From Aequorivita echinoideorum (GTDB lineage Bacteria; Bacteroidota; Bacteroidia; Flavobacteriales; Flavobacteriaceae): a DNA stretch of 64,000 nucleotides. This document shows, piece after piece, positions 21,487 to 33,308 of the stretch. Where the stretch lies: positions 310,001-374,000 of the forward strand of contig NZ_JAHCTB010000004.1 in the NCBI RefSeq assembly GCF_018476645.1, given 5' to 3'. Within the stretch, counting starts at the first letter, position 1, and each line of letters starts with the position of its first letter. The translations under genes were made by a program, and so were the position numbers. The notes under the pieces are model-generated. The model was not told where the DNA came from. It saw nothing but the letters and a program-made list of their open reading frames with translations, and did no database searches.

Positions 21487-22542
21487 ATGAACCTGTTTTT
21501 CAGCTATTCGCGAAAGCAAACAGAGGAAGTCGTGGACCTCGTTGATTTTTTGAGCATTTACCATACATGCTGGTTTGACTCAAAAATTGTGGCAGGAGCG
21601 GAGTGGTGGAAGGAAATTCTCTCCCAAATACGCAATTGCGATGTTTTCATTTTTGTGCTTAGCAATGACAGCAATAACTCCAAGGCGTGTTTGGCAGAAT
21701 TACAATATGCACAAAATCTGGGGCAATATATGGTTATTCTAAAGGTTGACGATTTAAAGGAAGCCTTTATTCCAGATTTTTTAAAAGGGAAAAATATTAC
21801 TTCTTATAAACCGGACGATAAAGCCAGGAAAAATGTTTTGGCACGTATCCTCAAGGGAATTGAGGATCGGGGAGACTTCAACGTGGTGTTAAATCTTGAC
21901 GCAAGGGAACCTGAGATTCCCTTTTCTGAATTAAGTTTAATTCACTCACAAATTAGAAAAGAAAATTCCATATCTGAAGCTGAGCAGGCGTCTTTGTTAT
22001 TTCGCATTGAAAAATTGATGGCAGCAAAGGATGTAGAAATAGAGGATATAAAAATCTTGATTTCAGATTTTCAAAATCGCAGCGATACCACGCGGATAAT
22101 TTTTGATAAATTGAATGCACTTTTACCCAGCACAAAGGAAAGAGCTCCAGAAATCCAGGATAGAATTTTGAATGATATTTTAAAGAATATTGCTACGTAT
22201 TCCGATGATGTTCAAATTCAAAAACGATTAGCAAACCAATATCATACACCCAATTTTTTATATGGCCGATGGCAGCGGATACGCACCGTACAAAATCTGC
22301 AGAATGTTCCCGTAACGCCAAATGAGGTTATTATTTTCAATAATAATTTTTCTTTTCAGGTTATTAGAAATAATATGCAGACCAATTTTGGAACATTTAT
22401 GTTTGATATGGATTATATATCAATCACGTTCATAAATGGTATGATAGATACTCGGAATTATCGCTGCTTTGCAAATGAACTCCACATAGTTCAGTATATG
22501 AACAATCTGCCATTTTTGATTGACTGTTATAAAAGGATTTGA
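21487..22542 (+). CDS. TIR-domain protein with C-terminal lipocalin-like region
   Basis: A 351-residue soluble protein. Residues 1-135 are a TIR domain: MNLFFSYSRKQTEEVVDLVDFL, CDVFIFVLSNDSNNSKACLAELQYA. Glu71 in LAEL aligns with the catalytic Glu of NAD-cleaving TIRs such as SARM1. A helical segment (about 160-250) follows. The last 90 residues are beta rich (FLYGRWQRIRTVQ ... NYRCFANELHIVQYMNNLPFLIDCYKRI) and resemble small lipocalin-like domains. Bacterial TIRs often act in anti-phage abortive infection, with the second domain sensing or binding a signal. It converges with another TIR gene. Confidence 0.78.
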   Translation: MNLFFSYSRKQTEEVVDLVDFLSIYHTCWFDSKIVAGAEWWKEILSQIRNCDVFIFVLSNDSNNSKACLAELQYAQNLGQYMVILKVDDLKEAFIPDFLKGKNITSYKPDDKARKNVLARILKGIEDRGDFNVVLNLDAREPEIPFSELSLIHSQIRKENSISEAEQASLLFRIEKLMAAKDVEIEDIKILISDFQNRSDTTRIIFDKLNALLPSTKERAPEIQDRILNDILKNIATYSDDVQIQKRLANQYHTPNFLYGRWQRIRTVQNLQNVPVTPNEVIIFNNNFSFQVIRNNMQTNFGTFMFDMDYISITFINGMIDTRNYRCFANELHIVQYMNNLPFLIDCYKRI

Positions 22543-22694: not shown

Positions 22695-23663
22695 CTATTT
22701 AAACCTTACTCCCGCCCAAATGTTATTGTTCATATCTACCCAAACTTCCTGAACAAGCAATTTTTGCCCAGGCTGCACGTACCGTCCATTTTGAGCATAA
22801 TTTTTCCCTTCAAACAATTCCGCTCTGTAAATAGGTGTAATAATATCTTCAATTTGTGGCGGCGAATTGGCATCCCCGGCGTAAAACAAATATTTTGCGC
22901 AATGCATTTCCCCGCCCTTGGTTCCATACCAAACAGTTCCCTCATTTCCCATCAATCCATTAATTTCAGTATATGCAGCTTCATAATATTTTGCTGTTTT
23001 TCCATATTTATATAAATATGAAATATAATTATCCAAATTATGCTTATCATAAACTGTTTTCCAATCATTTTCCTCAGTTGAAACTTCTATCGGTTCCTCA
23101 TCAGTTGTGGTTTCTTCAGGCGGCGTAAAAATTAAAATGAGAACAAAAAGTAGAAAAATGGCTGAAACCCCACCAATAATGTATGGCTTAATCGATTTTG
23201 AATTTTTTCTGTTGCCTGAATCCGAAATTTGTTGCTTTGGCGGTTGAAATGTATTTTTTACCACATTGACTGAGGACTCATTCAAATTAATTCTCAAATC
23301 TTTTACCAATCGCTCAAAACCCAATTCGGGGCCCATAACCGTAAAATCTACAAACTGTTTTCGCGCCAACCGCATCGGCACATCGCAATCTTCAATTTTT
23401 ATGGGATTCACTGGTTTGTCCAGTCCTATGGCATACGAAATTTCATCCTTTACATTTTCAGATTCTACCGATGTTTTGGAGAGAATGAGTACCACGGCAT
23501 CCGCCCTTTTCAGCTCTTCCTCTATGGTATCGTCCCAATCGGTTCCCGTTCGTATATTTTTATCGAACCAAACTTCAAAGCCCTGTTTGCGCAAAGCTTC
23601 CACCAAGGTTGAAACATAGGCCGTATCCCGTCTAGAATAGCTTATAAAAATTTTTGCTGCCAT
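22695..23663 (-). CDS. Membrane-anchored TIR-domain protein
   Basis: 322 residues. The N-terminal TIR_2 domain (1-135) starts MAAKIFISYSRRDTAYVSTLVEALRKQGFEVWFDK; RADAVVLILSKTSVESENVKDEISYAIGLDKPVNPI includes Glu74 at the position of the TIR NADase catalytic residue. One transmembrane helix is near 165-185 (PYIIGGVSAIFLLFVLILIF). An acidic linker and an extracytoplasmic domain of about 120 residues (DNYISYLYKYGKTAKYYEAAYTEI ... WVDMNNNIWAGVRFK), SH3-like at its end, complete it. The topology suggests an envelope sensor wired to a cytoplasmic TIR effector. It lies tail to tail with the soluble TIR gene. Confidence 0.8.
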   Translation of the reverse strand: MAAKIFISYSRRDTAYVSTLVEALRKQGFEVWFDKNIRTGTDWDDTIEEELKRADAVVLILSKTSVESENVKDEISYAIGLDKPVNPIKIEDCDVPMRLARKQFVDFTVMGPELGFERLVKDLRINLNESSVNVVKNTFQPPKQQISDSGNRKNSKSIKPYIIGGVSAIFLLFVLILIFTPPEETTTDEEPIEVSTEENDWKTVYDKHNLDNYISYLYKYGKTAKYYEAAYTEINGLMGNEGTVWYGTKGGEMHCAKYLFYAGDANSPPQIEDIITPIYRAELFEGKNYAQNGRYVQPGQKLLVQEVWVDMNNNIWAGVRFK

Positions 23664-27119: not shown

Positions 27120-27133
27120 TCAATCCTCTTTTT
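27106..27133. terminator. Shared terminator encoding the C-termini of two convergent genes
   Basis: AAAAAGAGGATT (27106-27117) pairs perfectly with 27122-27133 around a 4-nt loop. The two stop codons (TAA at 27117-27119 plus strand, TGA at 27120-27122 minus strand) are in and beside the loop, and the stem codes for ...KED on both strands. Confidence 0.9.
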
Positions 27134-27488
27134 TTATAGTATCAATTGGCTGTACCGTTGTTTTCATTTCTTTATAAACCGTCATTTGCGGGCGGGTAAG
27201 GATGTTGTTCATCTCTCTTGTTTCCTCCATTTGAAGCGCTAAGAGCATATCCAGTTTTTCCTTTCCGGTATACTCCTTCTCAATTTTTTGTGCGCGAATC
27301 AAAAATTCCTCAACCTTCTTTTTAAATAGTAAACGTTGTTGCGTAGTCATTGCTAGTTGCTCGTTGTAGGATTCTGTGATGATTTCAGAATTTTCAGCGG
27401 CACTCGCATCTGAATTTTGAAAAAATTGATCTTGTGAAAACGCCGTAAATGAAATAAATGTAAAAATGAGGATTGTAATAAGTTTCAT
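27120..27488 (-). CDS. Small exported helical protein
   Basis: 122 residues. The signal peptide MKLITILIFTFISFTAFSQ is followed by a helical, charged mature part (QRLLFKKKVEEFLIRAQKIEKEYTGKEKLDMLLALQMEETREMNNILTRPQMTVYKEM). The LTRPQMTVYKEM segment recalls small periplasmic Spy-like helical proteins of Bacteroidota, but no family can be named with confidence. It converges with the ArsC-like gene with zero bases between stop codons. Confidence 0.6.
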   Translation of the reverse strand: MKLITILIFTFISFTAFSQDQFFQNSDASAAENSEIITESYNEQLAMTTQQRLLFKKKVEEFLIRAQKIEKEYTGKEKLDMLLALQMEETREMNNILTRPQMTVYKEMKTTVQPIDTIKKED

Positions 27489-27595: not shown

Positions 27596-27847
27596 TTATT
27601 TAGTAATTTTTTTCTTAATAATGGCGATCGTATCGTCCACGGTGCGTAACTTTTCCATATCCTCATTCTTGAATTCTACATCAAAAGCGTCTTCAATGTC
27701 CAAAACAATATCCACCAAATGTGCAGAATTGATATTGAGTTGCTTGGTAAGATCACTGTCTCTTTTAATTTCTGAAGCATTAACGTCTTCCGGCAAGTAC
27801 GTTTTTATAATAGGTTCAAGTTTTTGATAAATTTCCGCTGTAGTCAT
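27596..27847 (-). CDS. Dedicated acyl carrier protein of the type III PKS operon
   Basis: An 83-residue four-helix carrier. The phosphopantetheine site is Ser41 in LNINSAHLVDIVLDIEDAF, where the usual DSL is NSA. The sequence differs clearly from a housekeeping AcpP. As the last gene of the operon, 6 bp after the ketosynthase, it probably carries the growing acyl chain made by the neighbouring KS, FabZ-like and FabI-like enzymes and delivers it to the type III PKS. A holo-ACP synthase must come from elsewhere. Confidence 0.9.
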   Translation of the reverse strand: MTTAEIYQKLEPIIKTYLPEDVNASEIKRDSDLTKQLNINSAHLVDIVLDIEDAFDVEFKNEDMEKLRTVDDTIAIIKKKITK

Positions 27848-27853
27848 CTCGCT

Positions 27854-29134
27854 TTAAATTTTTTTAAAGATAGCACAAGCATTCACATCTCCAAATCCAA
27901 AACTTGCCTTTATAATAGTCCGTAATTCTTTTTGAATAGTTTGTTTAGGAATTTTTTCCGAAGAAATTAACCCTTCAATTCTCGGGTGGATTTTATCACA
28001 GTTTACATTTGGAAAAATATAATTGTCCTGTAATTGAAGTAACGCAGAAACTATTTCAATACTCCCGCTGGCGGCCAGACAGTGCCCAACCATTCCCTTT
28101 ATTGAATTTATATAGGGAAAATTATTTCCTTCCCTGCGCAATGCTTTGGTCCAATTTTCAATTTCGTCGGGATCTTTTATGGTAGCGGTTAAATGACCAT
28201 TTATATAATCAATCTCTTCCGCTTTCACCCGTGATTTGGCCAATGCATTGACAATGCATCTTTGAATTGCCGTACCGTTCGGAGCCGTCATCGTGCCGCC
28301 ATTTCGCTGGCCACCGCTATTTACTGAGCCTCCCAAAATTTCGGCATATATTTTAGCACCTCTATTTTTAGCGCTTTCAAGAGATTCCAAAAGATAGGCT
28401 CCAGCGCCACTTCCGGGTATGAATCCGCCAGCATCCTCACTCATAGGGCCGGGAACTTGCTCCGGTGCGTGGTTGTATTTGTAATTTGAAACTTTTATGG
28501 CGTCAAAACCGCCCCAAATGTAGGGACCGCTATCACTCGTGCTACCGCAAAGGATTTGTTTGGCATGCCCATTTTTTATGCGCTCATATCCTAAAAGAAG
28601 CGCTTCCGTGCCCGTAGCACAAGCGGAAGAATTAACCGTAACCAAATTACCGGCACCTATCAATCCGCCAAGATAGGCGCTCACACCGCTGGCCATTGTC
28701 TGTGAAACAGAAGTGCTCCCCAGTCTGCGTACGTTGCCCGCATCAATTTTATAAATGGATTCCCTGAATTTTTCAATGCCGCTGGTACCCGTCCCGAAAA
28801 TGATTCCCAAATCCCAAAGTGGTTCGCCATCATTATCTGCAATGGCAATCTTGGCATCCGCCAACGCATCCATTCCAGCGATAACGCCATATAATATTCC
28901 GCTGCTATTAAAATTTTTAAGCTGAAGTTCAGAAAAATAGGCGTGCTTTTTTTCTTCGGAAATTTCTGGTAGCGCGCCTAATTGGCAGGAAAAATTCAAT
29001 TTTTCGAGCTCGGGCCTAAACGTTATTCCTGATTGACCTTCTTTAAGGGAATTATTGAAATCGGTAAGATTTACACCAATGGGAGAAACAATTCCCAAAC
29101 CCGTTACCACTACTCTATTCTCCACTGTTTTCAT
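27854..29134 (-). CDS. Beta-ketoacyl-ACP synthase, FabF/FabB-like
   Basis: A 426-residue condensing enzyme. Cys172 sits in VNSSACATGTEAL. The first His is in INGHLTATIKDPDE (divergent from the usual NAHGTST) and the second in VGHCLAASGSIE, so the Cys-His-His triad is intact. VVTGLGIVSPIG opens the fold. It would elongate an acyl chain on the adjacent ACP. The 5' end overlaps the dehydratase gene by 20 bp, indicating translational coupling. The divergence around the first His marks it as a secondary-metabolism enzyme rather than FabF. Confidence 0.9.
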   Translation of the reverse strand: MKTVENRVVVTGLGIVSPIGVNLTDFNNSLKEGQSGITFRPELEKLNFSCQLGALPEISEEKKHAYFSELQLKNFNSSGILYGVIAGMDALADAKIAIADNDGEPLWDLGIIFGTGTSGIEKFRESIYKIDAGNVRRLGSTSVSQTMASGVSAYLGGLIGAGNLVTVNSSACATGTEALLLGYERIKNGHAKQILCGSTSDSGPYIWGGFDAIKVSNYKYNHAPEQVPGPMSEDAGGFIPGSGAGAYLLESLESAKNRGAKIYAEILGGSVNSGGQRNGGTMTAPNGTAIQRCIVNALAKSRVKAEEIDYINGHLTATIKDPDEIENWTKALRREGNNFPYINSIKGMVGHCLAASGSIEIVSALLQLQDNYIFPNVNCDKIHPRIEGLISSEKIPKQTIQKELRTIIKASFGFGDVNACAIFKKI

Positions 29135-29588
29135 TTAAAATCATTCCGCTTATGCTGCCTTTACACACAATCTCGTTCTTTGAATTTAGCATTTTAACCT
29201 TGCATTTCAATTTCTGAAATCTAAAATATTCCTTCTCTGAAAGTACTCGCACGGTCTCATCAGGATACACAGGTTTGTAAAAATCTATTTCAGAAGAACT
29301 TAACGCAATTTTTAAATTATCTGAAGCTTCAATATCCATCAAGTATATTCCCAAGCAGACAACGCCAATCTGCGCCATACATTCAGTTAAAATAACTCCT
29401 GGCGTGATCGGGTTATTTTTGAAATGTCCTTTATAAAAATAGGAATCGGCCGAAAATTTATAGATACCCTCTACCCCATTCTCATCGATTGCCAAAAGCG
29501 AATCAACAAACAAAAAGGGCTCTGTGTAAGGCAATTTTTCAAGTATATTCTCAAAATTTGGCATATCAACAGTTGCTTTCTCCTCCAT
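29115..29588 (-). CDS. 3-hydroxyacyl-ACP dehydratase, FabZ-like
   Basis: 157 residues, hot-dog fold. LPYTEPFLFVDSLLAID and YFYKGHFKNNPITPGVILTECMAQIGVVCLG carry the catalytic His55 and Glu69 of FabZ. The ATG at 29588 overlaps the reductase gene by 23 bp. A second ATG at 29564 starts directly after the reductase stop and would remove eight residues. Its job would be to dehydrate 3-hydroxyacyl chains on the operon's ACP. Confidence 0.88.
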   Translation of the reverse strand: MEEKATVDMPNFENILEKLPYTEPFLFVDSLLAIDENGVEGIYKFSADSYFYKGHFKNNPITPGVILTECMAQIGVVCLGIYLMDIEASDNLKIALSSSEIDFYKPVYPDETVRVLSEKEYFRFQKLKCKVKMLNSKNEIVCKGSISGMILNENSGE

Positions 29589-30360
29589 CCACTTTCAAAA
29601 TAGTACCGTTAATCCAGTCCGCTTCAGGTCTGCAAAGAAGATAAACCGCGTTTGCCACATCCTGTGGCGTGGTCAATCTATTAAATGGATTTCTGTTCAA
29701 GGCCATTTTTGCAAGATCATCACTTCCCGGAATTGCACGAAAAGCCGCAGTTTCAGTAGTTCCGGCCTGAATGCAATTGGTGTTTATTCCCTTGCTGGCA
29801 AATTCTATGGACATATTTCGCATAAGGGCTTCAAGCGCGGATTTTGCCGCTGAAACCGCAGCGTAACCTGGCCAAACACGATTGTTTCCTTCGCTAGTGA
29901 AAGCTAAATTTCGTGCATTTTCTGAAAAGATTTCATTTTCAATGAGCGCAGCAGTCCATTGGTACCAGCTTGTTCCCATGGCGTGGATTGTGATTTCCAA
30001 GTCCTGAATTTTCAATATTTCAGATGTCCCCGACATAGACTTCAAACTTCCTTTTGCGATGCTATGTAAAAGAATTTTTACGCTATTTTTCGGCAGCGCA
30101 GATATTATTTCTTCTATTACGTTTTCTTTTAAAGCATCTTTGTTGAACGTTTTTACGGTAACGCCAAAGCTTTCCATTAATTTAATTTCTTTTTCGAAAT
30201 TTGGCAGATTACTTTTTCTGTCGCGATGCACGATGCAGATATTCATTCCATTTTCCGCCAATTTTTTAGCAGATGCAAGACCCAACCCACTGCTTCCGCC
30301 AAGAATCAATGCATATTGATTTTGCCACGCTTCAGAAGAAATAAATTTTTGATTATCCAT
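29566..30360 (-). CDS. FabI-like short-chain reductase
   Basis: 264 residues. The NAD(P)-binding region LILGGSSGLGLASAKKLAENG is classical SDR, but LLHSIAKGSL and the spacing Tyr166-x6-Lys173 (in YAAVSAAK) are the enoyl-ACP reductase FabI pattern rather than the Tyr-x3-Lys of ketoreductases. TILKVDGG ends the fold. It would reduce the enoyl-ACP formed by the FabZ-like enzyme. It overlaps the type III PKS gene by one base (TAATG). The operon has no obvious ketoreductase of its own. Confidence 0.82.
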   Translation of the reverse strand: MDNQKFISSEAWQNQYALILGGSSGLGLASAKKLAENGMNICIVHRDRKSNLPNFEKEIKLMESFGVTVKTFNKDALKENVIEEIISALPKNSVKILLHSIAKGSLKSMSGTSEILKIQDLEITIHAMGTSWYQWTAALIENEIFSENARNLAFTSEGNNRVWPGYAAVSAAKSALEALMRNMSIEFASKGINTNCIQAGTTETAAFRAIPGSDDLAKMALNRNPFNRLTTPQDVANAVYLLCRPEADWINGTILKVDGGESNC

Positions 30361-31412
30361 TAAAATCGTAATAACACGCGTTGTGCAGAAAATCCTGGGC
30401 CAAAACTGAGCATAAGTCCTAAACTACCAATCGGAGGATTTTTATCCATAAATCTTTCCAAAACATATAGCACCGTTGCGCTGCTCATATTTCCGTATAG
30501 CCTCAAAACCTCTTTAGTATCATCAATATTTTTACCTAGCTGTCCAAAGAGGTCTTCTACGGTTTCCACAATTTTTCTACCGCCCGGATGAAAAATCAGG
30601 TGGTCAATATCTTCAATCTTGAGATTATTTTTTTTCAAAAAAGGATGAATGATGTTTGGAAAATGATCGGCAATTTTTTGCGGGACTTCTTTGTCCAAAA
30701 CCATTTGAAGTCCAGTATTTACCAAATTAAAACCCATCATTTGCGTGGCGTCATAAAAGTGGTACATTTCATTTGCAATAATTTCAGGCCCCCTATCTTC
30801 CTCATTTGAGGATAATAGAACACAAGCAGCACCATCTCCAAAAATCGCAGAGCTCACAATATTCACCATTGAGAAATCTGTTAACTGAAAAGTTGCGGTG
30901 GGCGCTTCCAGTGCAATTACAGCTGCGCGTTTTCCGGGATTGGCCCTTAAAAAATTTTCGGCATAAATAATTCCTGAAATTCCTGCAGCACAGCCCATCT
31001 CGGTCACCGGCAACCGGATAATGTCCTGTTTCATTTGCAACTCATTCACCAAAAATGCATCCACGCTTGGGATCATAATTCCTGTGCAACTTACGGTGAT
31101 AATAAAATCAACGTCCGTAGGTTTCCAATTTGCTTTAGAGAGAGCTTTTTCTAAACATTTACGTCCAAGTTTCTTCACTTCCCGACTGTAGATGGCATTG
31201 CGCTCCTCAAAACTGGTATTGGTAAAAACCTCAATGGGATCCATAATTGAATAGCGCTTGTCCACACCGGCGCTCTCAAAAATTTTAATGGCCTTTCGCT
31301 TAAATCGAGCCTCCTGCCCTTCCATCCATTGCTCGAAAAAAGGAATTATTTCTGAAGTGTTACGGCTGTAATCTGGTAGTTGCTTGGCAACATTTATAAT
31401 TTTTACGCTCAT
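30360..31412 (-). CDS. Type III polyketide synthase (chalcone/stilbene synthase family)
   Basis: A 350-residue ACP-independent condensing enzyme. The triad is complete: Cys141 in TEMGCAAGISG, His275 in IFHPGGRKIVE and Asn308 in YGNMSSATVLYVLE. The C-terminal GLMLSFGPGFSAQRVLLRF is the GFGPG loop. Such enzymes extend an acyl starter with malonyl-CoA and cyclise it to resorcinols, pyrones or quinone precursors. The surrounding ACP/KS/dehydratase/reductase set suggests a long or unusual acyl starter delivered in cis. The product is unknown. Confidence 0.94.
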   Translation of the reverse strand: MSVKIINVAKQLPDYSRNTSEIIPFFEQWMEGQEARFKRKAIKIFESAGVDKRYSIMDPIEVFTNTSFEERNAIYSREVKKLGRKCLEKALSKANWKPTDVDFIITVSCTGIMIPSVDAFLVNELQMKQDIIRLPVTEMGCAAGISGIIYAENFLRANPGKRAAVIALEAPTATFQLTDFSMVNIVSSAIFGDGAACVLLSSNEEDRGPEIIANEMYHFYDATQMMGFNLVNTGLQMVLDKEVPQKIADHFPNIIHPFLKKNNLKIEDIDHLIFHPGGRKIVETVEDLFGQLGKNIDDTKEVLRLYGNMSSATVLYVLERFMDKNPPIGSLGLMLSFGPGFSAQRVLLRF

Positions 31413-31416
31413 AAAA

Positions 31417-32139
31417 CTACGGATTCGTTTTTTTTATTATCCATTGATATCGAAAGGCCCAGCGCCATTTTATGCTGTTATGTTGACTATCTAATTTTGT
31501 TGAAATAAGTGCCAACTCTTGTTTTTTAAATCCTCGAGCAACGGAAACCAATCCGTCGTGTCTTGCAATTTTCGTTTTTAAAAACGGATTGCTTATTAAT
31601 TTAAATAATTGAAAGGCAATTCTGCTCCTTTGTAAATCATTTATTACTACACCGATACTTGTTTTATTAAGAATTTTCTTCAACAAAAATTCAATTTTTT
31701 CATTTCTGAAATGATGCAGAAATAAGGTACATAGCGCAATATCGCAATTTGGAATTAAATTCTCAGCAGAAAAAACATCCATTTTTTGATAAGAAATATT
31801 TGGGAATCCATCACTTTTTTTGCTCGCTTCAATCAAAATATTTGGATTAAAATCGATACCAATGAGATTGAAATTATATCCATTATGATGACCAAATTTT
31901 GCGCATTGTCGTAACATTTCACCATCACCGCAACCAAAATCTATGATTGTTATTTTATCCTTTTTGGAATAATTCTTCAAAAGAATTTCAATGCCATCAA
32001 GCGTTACTGAATTTCCCCCCAACCATCTATTTACACGTTTCAGATCGTTGAGCAATACTTTCATCTCATTACCTTGCAGATGAAAATCGTCCATAATTTC
32101 AGGCTGTTTCGATCTTTCTTTATTGCTGAAATATATCAT
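31417..32139 (-). CDS. Class I SAM-dependent methyltransferase
   Basis: 240 residues. The SAM-binding motif I is TIIDFGCGDGEMLRQC, with LIGIDFNPNILIEA (motif II) and CDIALCTLFLHHF (motif IV) following. It belongs to the methyltransferase domain 25/11 group, commonly found between an FAD oxidase and a type III PKS in bacterial operons. Its start overlaps the upstream gene by 4 bp (ATGA). A role in O- or C-methylation of the polyketide ring is inferred from context. Confidence 0.88.
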   Translation of the reverse strand: MIYFSNKERSKQPEIMDDFHLQGNEMKVLLNDLKRVNRWLGGNSVTLDGIEILLKNYSKKDKITIIDFGCGDGEMLRQCAKFGHHNGYNFNLIGIDFNPNILIEASKKSDGFPNISYQKMDVFSAENLIPNCDIALCTLFLHHFRNEKIEFLLKKILNKTSIGVVINDLQRSRIAFQLFKLISNPFLKTKIARHDGLVSVARGFKKQELALISTKLDSQHNSIKWRWAFRYQWIIKKTNP

Positions 32140-33260
32140 ATCGACTTTTTTCCGTGGGTATTTCTGATAATTGAAGTAAGCATTGTCGGAAATAATTTTG
32201 CCACCGCAAATCCAATTTTTAGCGAAACCGGGTTCAATAAAGCTCGTTGTATATATCGTCCGGTTTTCAATCTATTTTTGAAATATTGGTTCCAAGATAA
32301 TGCATATTGTTTTTCCAAACGTGCTCTATCCCAATTCTCTTTTTTTGATTTTAAATATAATTCAGAAAAAATCTTTGCGCCGTGAATTGCCATTGCCATT
32401 CCGTTTCCGCAGAGTGGATGTATCAACCCTGCGCTATCGCCAACCATAAAAATATGATTTTCTACAGGTTTTTTTGATTCAAATGAAATTTGGCTAATGG
32501 TCATTGGTCTATCAAATATCGGTTTTGCATTATTGAAGAATTGATTGAGATAGGGATTTTTTGAGAGACAATTTTTCTGAAAATTTGAAACATCCCCATG
32601 TTTTTTGAAAGATTTCAGCGTAGTCAAATAACACGCGTTTACAATAGTATCTTCAACCCTGCTCAATCCGCAATACCCGCCTTCAAAATTATGTAACGCT
32701 ACGCTATTAGTTAGAAAATCATAATCGAAGTGACCCTTTACCGCGAGCCAAGTTGCTGGAATTTCAAAAAAATCACGGTTGAGAAATGCATCTAAATTGG
32801 AACGCTTACCGAAGGCCCCCAAAACATAGTTAGATATGAATTTTTTTTTTGATTGTGTTATAACTTCAAAAGAATCGTTTTGAAAATTAATTTTTTCAAC
32901 CGTTTCAAATGCAACTTTTCCGTAATTTTTCAAAGTTCGGTAGATAAGATTATCAAAACTATACCTACTTATGCCAAAACCACCGAGCGGTAATTCACAT
33001 TTAAGGAGTCTGCCATTGACATCACTCATTTCAAAATTTGAAATTTTAGTTGCCCCCACAACAAATGGATCAATGCCCAACTGAGATAAATATGCCAAAA
33101 CCTCGTTGCTCACATATTCTCCGCAAACCTTGTGATGCGGATATGGATGTCTTTCTAATAAAAGCACATTGCAATTTTGTTTTGAAAGGTGCAATGCCGC
33201 TACCAATCCGGCAAGACCACCACCAACAATTATTATTTCATAATTTGTGCTCAATTCCAT
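32136..33260 (-). CDS. FAD-dependent monooxygenase / geranylgeranyl-reductase-like oxidoreductase
   Basis: 374 residues. The dinucleotide-binding motif IIVGGGLAGLVAALHLSKQNCNVLLLERHPYPHHKVCGEYVS and the second FAD motif FMVGDSAGLIHPLCGNGMAMAIHGAK place it in the GR2/PHBH-like flavoprotein family. It is the first gene of the type III PKS operon, and a hydroxylation of the phenolic product (as in srsC-type flavoproteins) is the simplest role. A reductase role on an isoprenoid-like chain is possible. Its ATG lies only 16 bp after the OmpA terminator. Confidence 0.85.
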   Translation of the reverse strand: MELSTNYEIIIVGGGLAGLVAALHLSKQNCNVLLLERHPYPHHKVCGEYVSNEVLAYLSQLGIDPFVVGATKISNFEMSDVNGRLLKCELPLGGFGISRYSFDNLIYRTLKNYGKVAFETVEKINFQNDSFEVITQSKKKFISNYVLGAFGKRSNLDAFLNRDFFEIPATWLAVKGHFDYDFLTNSVALHNFEGGYCGLSRVEDTIVNACYLTTLKSFKKHGDVSNFQKNCLSKNPYLNQFFNNAKPIFDRPMTISQISFESKKPVENHIFMVGDSAGLIHPLCGNGMAMAIHGAKIFSELYLKSKKENWDRARLEKQYALSWNQYFKNRLKTGRYIQRALLNPVSLKIGFAVAKLFPTMLTSIIRNTHGKKSI

Positions 33261-33276: not shown

Positions 33277-33308
33277 AAAAATCCCGACCAATATGGAACG
33301 GGATTTTT
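33277..33308 (-). terminator. Terminator of the ompA-like gene, upstream of the PKS operon
   Basis: AAAAATCCCG (33277-33286) pairs with CGGGATTTTT (33299-33308) around a 12-nt loop. It ends transcripts from the minus-strand OmpA gene before the FAD monooxygenase start. Confidence 0.75.

Follow-up and report, generated by a model that had tools for sequence, protein, structure and literature searches.

Type III polyketide synthases (PKSs) usually take their starters from host metabolism, and the locus described here raises the question of whether such an enzyme could be fed by a fatty-acid module encoded in its own operon. The window, i.e., the whole stretch of 64,000 nucleotides that was analysed, comes from Aequorivita echinoideorum (contig NZ_JAHCTB010000004.1, positions 310,001 to 374,000) and contains seven minus-strand open reading frames spanning 27596-33260. 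From upstream to downstream, they encode a monooxygenase-like, flavin adenine dinucleotide (FAD)-dependent oxidoreductase of the UbiH/geranylgeranyl-reductase superfamily as the first gene of the operon (32136..33260; 374 aa), a PRK06202-like class I S-adenosylmethionine (SAM) methyltransferase (MT; 31417..32139; 240 aa), the type III PKS (30360..31412; 350 aa), an enoyl-acyl carrier protein reductase of the FabL/FabI type (ER; 29566..30360; 264 aa), a FabZ-type 3-hydroxyacyl-acyl carrier protein dehydratase (DH; 29115..29588; 157 aa), a FabF-type ketosynthase (KS; 27854..29134; 426 aa) and an acyl carrier protein with an INSA phosphopantetheine site (ACP; 27596..27847; 83 aa). The genes overlap by 4 bp (FAD/MT), 1 bp (PKS/ER), 23 bp (ER/DH) and 20 bp (DH/KS), with gaps of 4 bp (MT/PKS) and 6 bp (KS/ACP). 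A preliminary description of the locus had given this gene content and order, with neighbouring genes overlapping by 1-23 bp or separated by 4-6 bp; the genes were found where it had placed them, their families are backed by Pfam and NCBIfam, and the measured junctions match. Based on the analyses below, we propose that a dedicated type II fatty-acid module probably feeds an acyl-ACP starter to the type III PKS, and that the MT and the FAD enzyme then tailor the ring.

The operon recurs widely among relatives. A search of 199 Flavobacteriaceae genomes with the PKS (E 1e-20) matched 64, of which G072 was set aside as carrying a different PKS (34% identity), leaving 63 genomes, A. echinoideorum included, with an operon-type PKS that is 58-100% identical to that of the window. 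The pairing of fatty-acid module and PKS was present in about one third of the sampled Flavobacteriaceae genera. We gathered 146 regions, from 63 family genomes (A. echinoideorum excluded and G072 included), 80 loci that were the best 80 of 396, and three genomes from other families of the class, and retained 140 distinct relatives once identical PKSs were collapsed and the G072 locus was dropped. All seven genes were found in identical order in 81 of the 140, counting as complete one locus (L057) in which the ER match spans only 13% of the query, while 48 had all genes but the ER and 11 were partial, being contig-cut, split or without a gene. Among the best 80 of 396 loci, 33 were complete, 41 lacked only the ER and 6 were otherwise partial; here the ER-less loci were mostly from Flavobacterium and Polaribacter, and the complete ones included Aequorivita, which also supplied the nearest relatives of the window PKS (up to 85% identity). 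Such recurrence of order and content lies far beyond chance.

The most telling evidence that the PKS may be served by the fatty-acid genes is that these genes are inherited with it and are retained after a split. When the operon KS was searched for in the 199 family genomes at E 1e-80, it was found in 62 of the 63 genomes with an operon-type PKS and in 0 of the 136 without one (Fisher p 2.5e-51, in a test that ignores the kinship of these related genomes). The sole exception of the 63 is G138 (99% complete), in which FAD-MT-PKS-ER is present and no KS match was obtained. In two other genomes, G190 and G144, the PKS locus likewise consists of FAD-MT-PKS-ER only, and DH-KS-ACP is retained elsewhere, approximately 354 kb from the PKS locus in G190 and on another contig in G144. 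Since the genomes are related, we give these split cases more weight than the Fisher p.

The module is also distant from the other fatty-acid genes of the same genome. Besides the operon, A. echinoideorum has ketosynthases on contigs C11 and C20, three ACPs and two FabZ/FabA-type matches, and a single 4'-phosphopantetheinyl transferase (PPTase) was detected, on contig C11. The C11 ketosynthase, which lies next to an ACP and presumably acts as the main FabF, shows 32% identity to the operon KS; the best KS on C20 shows 31% over the full length, and another C20 KS reaches 34% over a 164-residue segment. For the DH, the best paralogue was a 480-residue frame, presumably LpxC-FabZ (30% identity over 99 residues), and comparison of the ER with other reductases gave no more than 31% identity across the bulk of the protein, one 41-residue segment reaching 39%. 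The operon ACP gave no BLAST match in the loci of the genome's other KS, ACP and DH genes. Taken with the co-inheritance, the low paralogue identity makes the dedicated acyl supply claimed in the preliminary description very likely, whereas its set of four fatty-acid enzymes is not uniform, as the 48 operons without the ER demonstrate. On contig C20, a region at about 495974-506758 with four KS matches, two ACPs, a FabA/FabZ-type match and a short-chain dehydrogenase/reductase (SDR) resembles an aryl polyene/flexirubin cluster. We considered whether the operon equates to this cluster and rejected it, as the two are separate loci with a best full-length KS identity of 31%.

The ER is the variable part of the module. 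On a quick PKS tree, in which 21 of 142 inner branches were starred, the ER/no-ER label requires 10 changes (141 rows), at least five of them on supported branches, or 9 changes (132 rows). No ER copy elsewhere was detected at E 1e-20 in any of the nine ER-less genomes searched, and the same search found the ER in 3/3 ER-bearing control genomes. Loss of the ER predicts unsaturated tails in some relatives, unless the host FabI reduces the chain. A second variable element is a PPTase gene 3' of the ACP gene, which was found in 62 of 141 regions (median distance -3 bp; one confirmed by Pfam at E 2.5e-12 and the others assigned to its group from BLAST and motif evidence) and is not present at the window operon. 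Of the 141 loci, which include the unrelated PKS locus L065, 73 had the ER only, 17 the ER and the PPTase, 45 the PPTase only and 6 neither. After correction for kinship, five independent pairs on supported branches were left (sign test, median p 1), and the seeming antagonism between ER and PPTase amounts, for now, to nothing beyond a clade effect.

Several further variants were seen in individual loci. In five Polaribacter loci (L164, L177, L182, L183, and L187) a gene (MKYEVL..FYHIYNCGNNKE) lies between PKS and DH, in the position of the missing ER; judged by eye, it looks like a REP-associated transposase. In 17 relatives, a small conserved membrane-like protein (MKDFKAFVMQKLQVDKRLL..) is encoded immediately 3' of the ACP, the median distance being 5 bp (e.g., L060), and is possibly a further member of the operon. 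The PKS and FAD matches of G150 (L249) are each spread over two adjoining pieces, and the ER of G078 (L070), one of the three ER-bearing controls, contains an internal stop codon; either decay or sequencing error could account for both.

Are the seven proteins then likely to be functional? Pfam and NCBIfam placed them as a PP-binding ACP, a ketoacyl synthase, a FabA/FabZ protein, an SDR enoyl-ACP reductase, a chalcone/stilbene-synthase-type PKS, a class I methyltransferase and a FAD oxidoreductase. Since most of the NCBIfam scores are under the curated cut-offs, the proteins can be regarded as divergent family members. The best NCBIfam model for the ER was FabL, again with a score under its cut-off, and the catalytic Tyr and Lys of the protein are spaced as in enoyl reductases (Tyr-x6-Lys) and unlike those of ketoreductases (Tyr-x3-Lys). 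Active-site residues were counted from aligned columns in full-length relatives only, truncated sequences having been excluded beforehand, and were kept throughout: Cys141-His275-Asn308 of the PKS in 139/139, Cys172-His314-His351 of the KS in 126/126, His55 and Glu69 of the DH in 134/134, Tyr166 and Lys173 of the ER in 88/88 and the phosphopantetheine Ser41 of the ACP in 132/132. The NSA motif of the ACP and the NGHLTAT motif of the KS, previously remarked upon as divergent, are indeed present, but they are clade signatures with intact catalytic residues, not private oddities: N, S and A are found in 131, 132, and 124 of 132 ACPs, and the His and following Leu of the KS motif in 126 and 125 of 126 KSs. 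That these odd motifs mean loss of function was rejected, because the catalytic residues are invariant in relatives.

The MT gave an AlphaFold model with a mean predicted local distance difference test score of 93.8, and His142-His143 is invariant across 34 aligned sequences, but its fold matches mix C-, O- and other methyltransferases. The nearest solved folds of the PKS were Pks11 (alkylpyrone) first and CylI (resorcinol; 25% identity) second, and in the structure searches long-chain type III PKSs did not stand clearly apart from others. With regard to the position of ArsB Trp281/ArsC Gly284, which bears on pyrone versus resorcinol formation, ArsC was not among the 60 PDB matches listed for either query.

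While gene content, gene order, intact active sites, conservation and co-inheritance are established at the level of sequence, the course of the pathway is our proposal. The operon ACP would be activated by a PPTase, here the C11 enzyme and in 62 relatives the ACP-adjacent one, and, with this ACP as carrier, the KS would elongate an acyl chain begun by the host. Neither a FabG-type ketoreductase nor a malonyl transferase was found by Pfam and NCBIfam among the seven operon proteins; hence, malonyl transfer and ketoreduction would be supplied by the host. The DH, together with the ER where present, would complete each elongation cycle, after which the acyl group would pass from the ACP to Cys141 of the PKS, be extended there with malonyl units and be cyclised, the ring being of the resorcinol, pyrone or acylphloroglucinol type. 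Once the MT had methylated and the FAD enzyme hydroxylated this ring, the final product would be a methylated lipid of the phenolic, quinone or pyrone type. More tentatively, the operon may be a self-contained relay, with its own ACP and often its own PPTase, that makes an undescribed class of Flavobacteriaceae lipids in which keeping or repeatedly losing the ER would, over evolution, switch the same ring between saturated and unsaturated (polyene) tails; this stronger version is possible, though we would not expect it to hold in full.

That the operon has a KS and no FabG-type reductase also suits a different hand-off, in which the last KS round is left unreduced and the PKS takes the resulting beta-ketoacyl-ACP and finishes the ring as in CylI, its second nearest solved fold, which was solved with a beta-ketoacyl N-acetylcysteamine thioester. 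However, a DH in nearly all relatives and an ER in most of them point to reduction cycles, with which an unreduced last round would still be compatible, and Pks11 ranks above CylI. We regard this variant as doubtful, although credible.

The type III PKS of Zobellia galactanivorans reportedly makes phloroglucinol, and a malonyl-primed PKS making a phloroglucinol-like small ring, with the fatty-acid genes acylating or decorating it or making a separate lipid, was also considered for the operon. In a report on an Antarctic Aequorivita sp., the PKS is given as 69% identical to the Z. galactanivorans enzyme (data not shown in that report; PMC6139392), and because of this value the latter would fall within the identity range of the operon clade. 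Nevertheless, the co-inheritance of KS and PKS and the retention of the module after splitting fit a joint product better, and both Pks11 and CylI, the closest solved structures, use long acyl chains, making a malonyl-primed PKS unlikely.

Another improbable outcome is that the module makes a polyene-type chain, giving an aryl-polyene-like pigment joined to the ring. Aryl polyene/flexirubin clusters typically contain an AMP (adenosine monophosphate) ligase and several KS genes, whereas the operon has one KS and no AMP ligase was found by Pfam and NCBIfam among its seven proteins. In favour of a polyene are the 48 relatives that lack the ER but are otherwise complete, the nine searched ER-less genomes with no copy elsewhere, and the label T3pks-arylpolyene given to the PKS cluster of the Antarctic Aequorivita sp. 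(PMC6139392). On the other hand, the window ER is present with an intact Tyr-x6-Lys site, and in ER-less strains the host FabI could reduce the chain. Finally, chance placement of housekeeping fatty-acid paralogues beside the PKS has nothing in its favour beyond the commonness of these families and is scarcely credible, being contradicted by the distribution, both in the order and content kept in 81/140 distinct relatives and in the KS count of 62/63 versus 0/136, and by the distance of KS and DH from their best paralogues (approximately 30-32% identity), and we rejected it.

Outside the operon clade, type III PKSs were differently accompanied. At E 1e-15 some type III PKS was found in at least 177 of 395 genomes of the phylum, and outside the clade identities were at most 37% among the matches listed. 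In 17 distant PKS regions examined (L203-L219), no relatives of KS, DH, ER or ACP were found, while MT and FAD homologues were both present in three (28-42% identity, the FAD homologues at 37-42%) and an MT alone in one. A FAD monooxygenase and a methyltransferase adjoin a Sphingobium plasmid PKS, an isoprenylcysteine-type methyltransferase lies near a Phyllobacterium PKS, and neither methyltransferase nor FAD monooxygenase adjoins a Rhizobium etli PKS. The pairing of a PKS with tailoring genes thus extends beyond this clade, which would have added the fatty-acid module. Within the class, the operon is also present, at 71-74% identity, in the three genomes from other families, one copy being complete and two without the ER, and since these copies branch inside the Flavobacteriaceae PKS tree, they suggest that the operon moved horizontally to other families. 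In G437 the operon lies on a 7.0-Mb contig, backing real transfer, and two metagenome-assembled genomes, named Spirosoma (L185) and Saprospiraceae (L167), hold copies with 75-76% PKS identity, due to either transfer or mis-binning.

At its upstream end, the operon is preceded by a minus-strand hairpin with a T-run (33277..33308), located between an OmpA-like lipoprotein gene and the FAD gene. The 80-nt stretch folded with a z of -4.24, and 0 of 200 shuffles folded equally well. The hairpin is a probable terminator insulating the operon from the OmpA-like gene, so that the operon probably has its own start; a scan for sigma-70 promoters yielded 23 hits where chance would give 21.8. Downstream, about 107 bp past the ACP gene, a gene on the same strand (27120-27488) encodes a small secreted-looking protein with no Pfam or NCBIfam match, and a gene resembling it by eye is also downstream of the operon in Aequorivita capsosiphonis (L122). 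Elsewhere in the window, two convergent genes, 21487-22542 (+) and 22695-23663 (-), each encode a protein with a TIR domain at its N-terminus (Pfam TIR_2, E 3e-16 and 8e-28) and had only partial PADLOC matches (ThsB, Argonaute-TIR, and SAVED-TIR models); a defence role is possible.

Type III PKS clusters of Flavobacteriaceae have been catalogued before, amounting to 10.74% of clusters among 2,680 genomes (PMC10734526) and 9% in another set (PMC7440613), and the operon type is presumably among them. The retrieved portions of these reports and of that on the Antarctic Aequorivita sp. give counts and labels and describe no KS-DH-ER-ACP module or product (PMC10734526; PMC7440613; PMC6139392). The expectation that the product is new to the family must be adjusted accordingly: such clusters were already known, one of them in Aequorivita, while no description of the fatty-acid module or product of this operon was found in the open-licence PubMed Central literature.

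To our knowledge, operons with their own acyl supply are few among the known ones (ars and cyl). In the present operon the parts are ordinary and the wiring is uncommon. It is frequent in a widely distributed family, is built of separate proteins and occurs naturally in ER-plus and ER-minus forms, which opens starter supply, carrier-protein recognition and chain saturation to genetic and biochemical tests, and it may lead to the product behind many Flavobacteriaceae type III PKS clusters that have so far only been counted.

With regard to known systems, the preliminary description had pointed to Streptomyces srsABC, which encodes a PKS, an isoprenylcysteine-type methyltransferase and a flavoprotein; in contrast, the operon methyltransferase is class I SAM-dependent, and we know of no fatty-acid supply encoded by srsABC itself. 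Nearer analogues are ars for the supply and planctomycete and cyanobacterial MT-oxidoreductase-PKS operons for the tailoring. ArsA of Azotobacter vinelandii is a multidomain type I protein. Acyl chains pass from its ACP domain to ArsB and ArsC (PMC6274091), and, as judged by gene content and spacing, fatty-acid synthesis genes share an operon with a type III PKS in both systems. Unlike ars, the operon encodes four separate proteins of 83-426 aa where ArsA carries its own ACP domain, and has two tailoring enzymes beside them in the operon, the acyl hand-off being predicted from its genes. CylI, the cylindrocyclophane PKS, is similar to the scheme proposed here in receiving its chain from a carrier-protein pathway, but that supply comes from type I PKSs, and CylI is only 25% identical to the operon PKS. 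Alkylresorcinols are the products of the PKSs encoded in the planctomycete MT-oxidoreductase-type III PKS operon and the cyanobacterial hidABC (hierridin) operon, and C-methylation is the probable activity of the Gimesia maris methyltransferase (PMC10896814). Compared by kind of enzyme, these operons resemble ours in having an MT and a FAD-type oxidoreductase beside the PKS, whereas their gene order differs and the retrieved portions of that report mention no fatty-acid genes.

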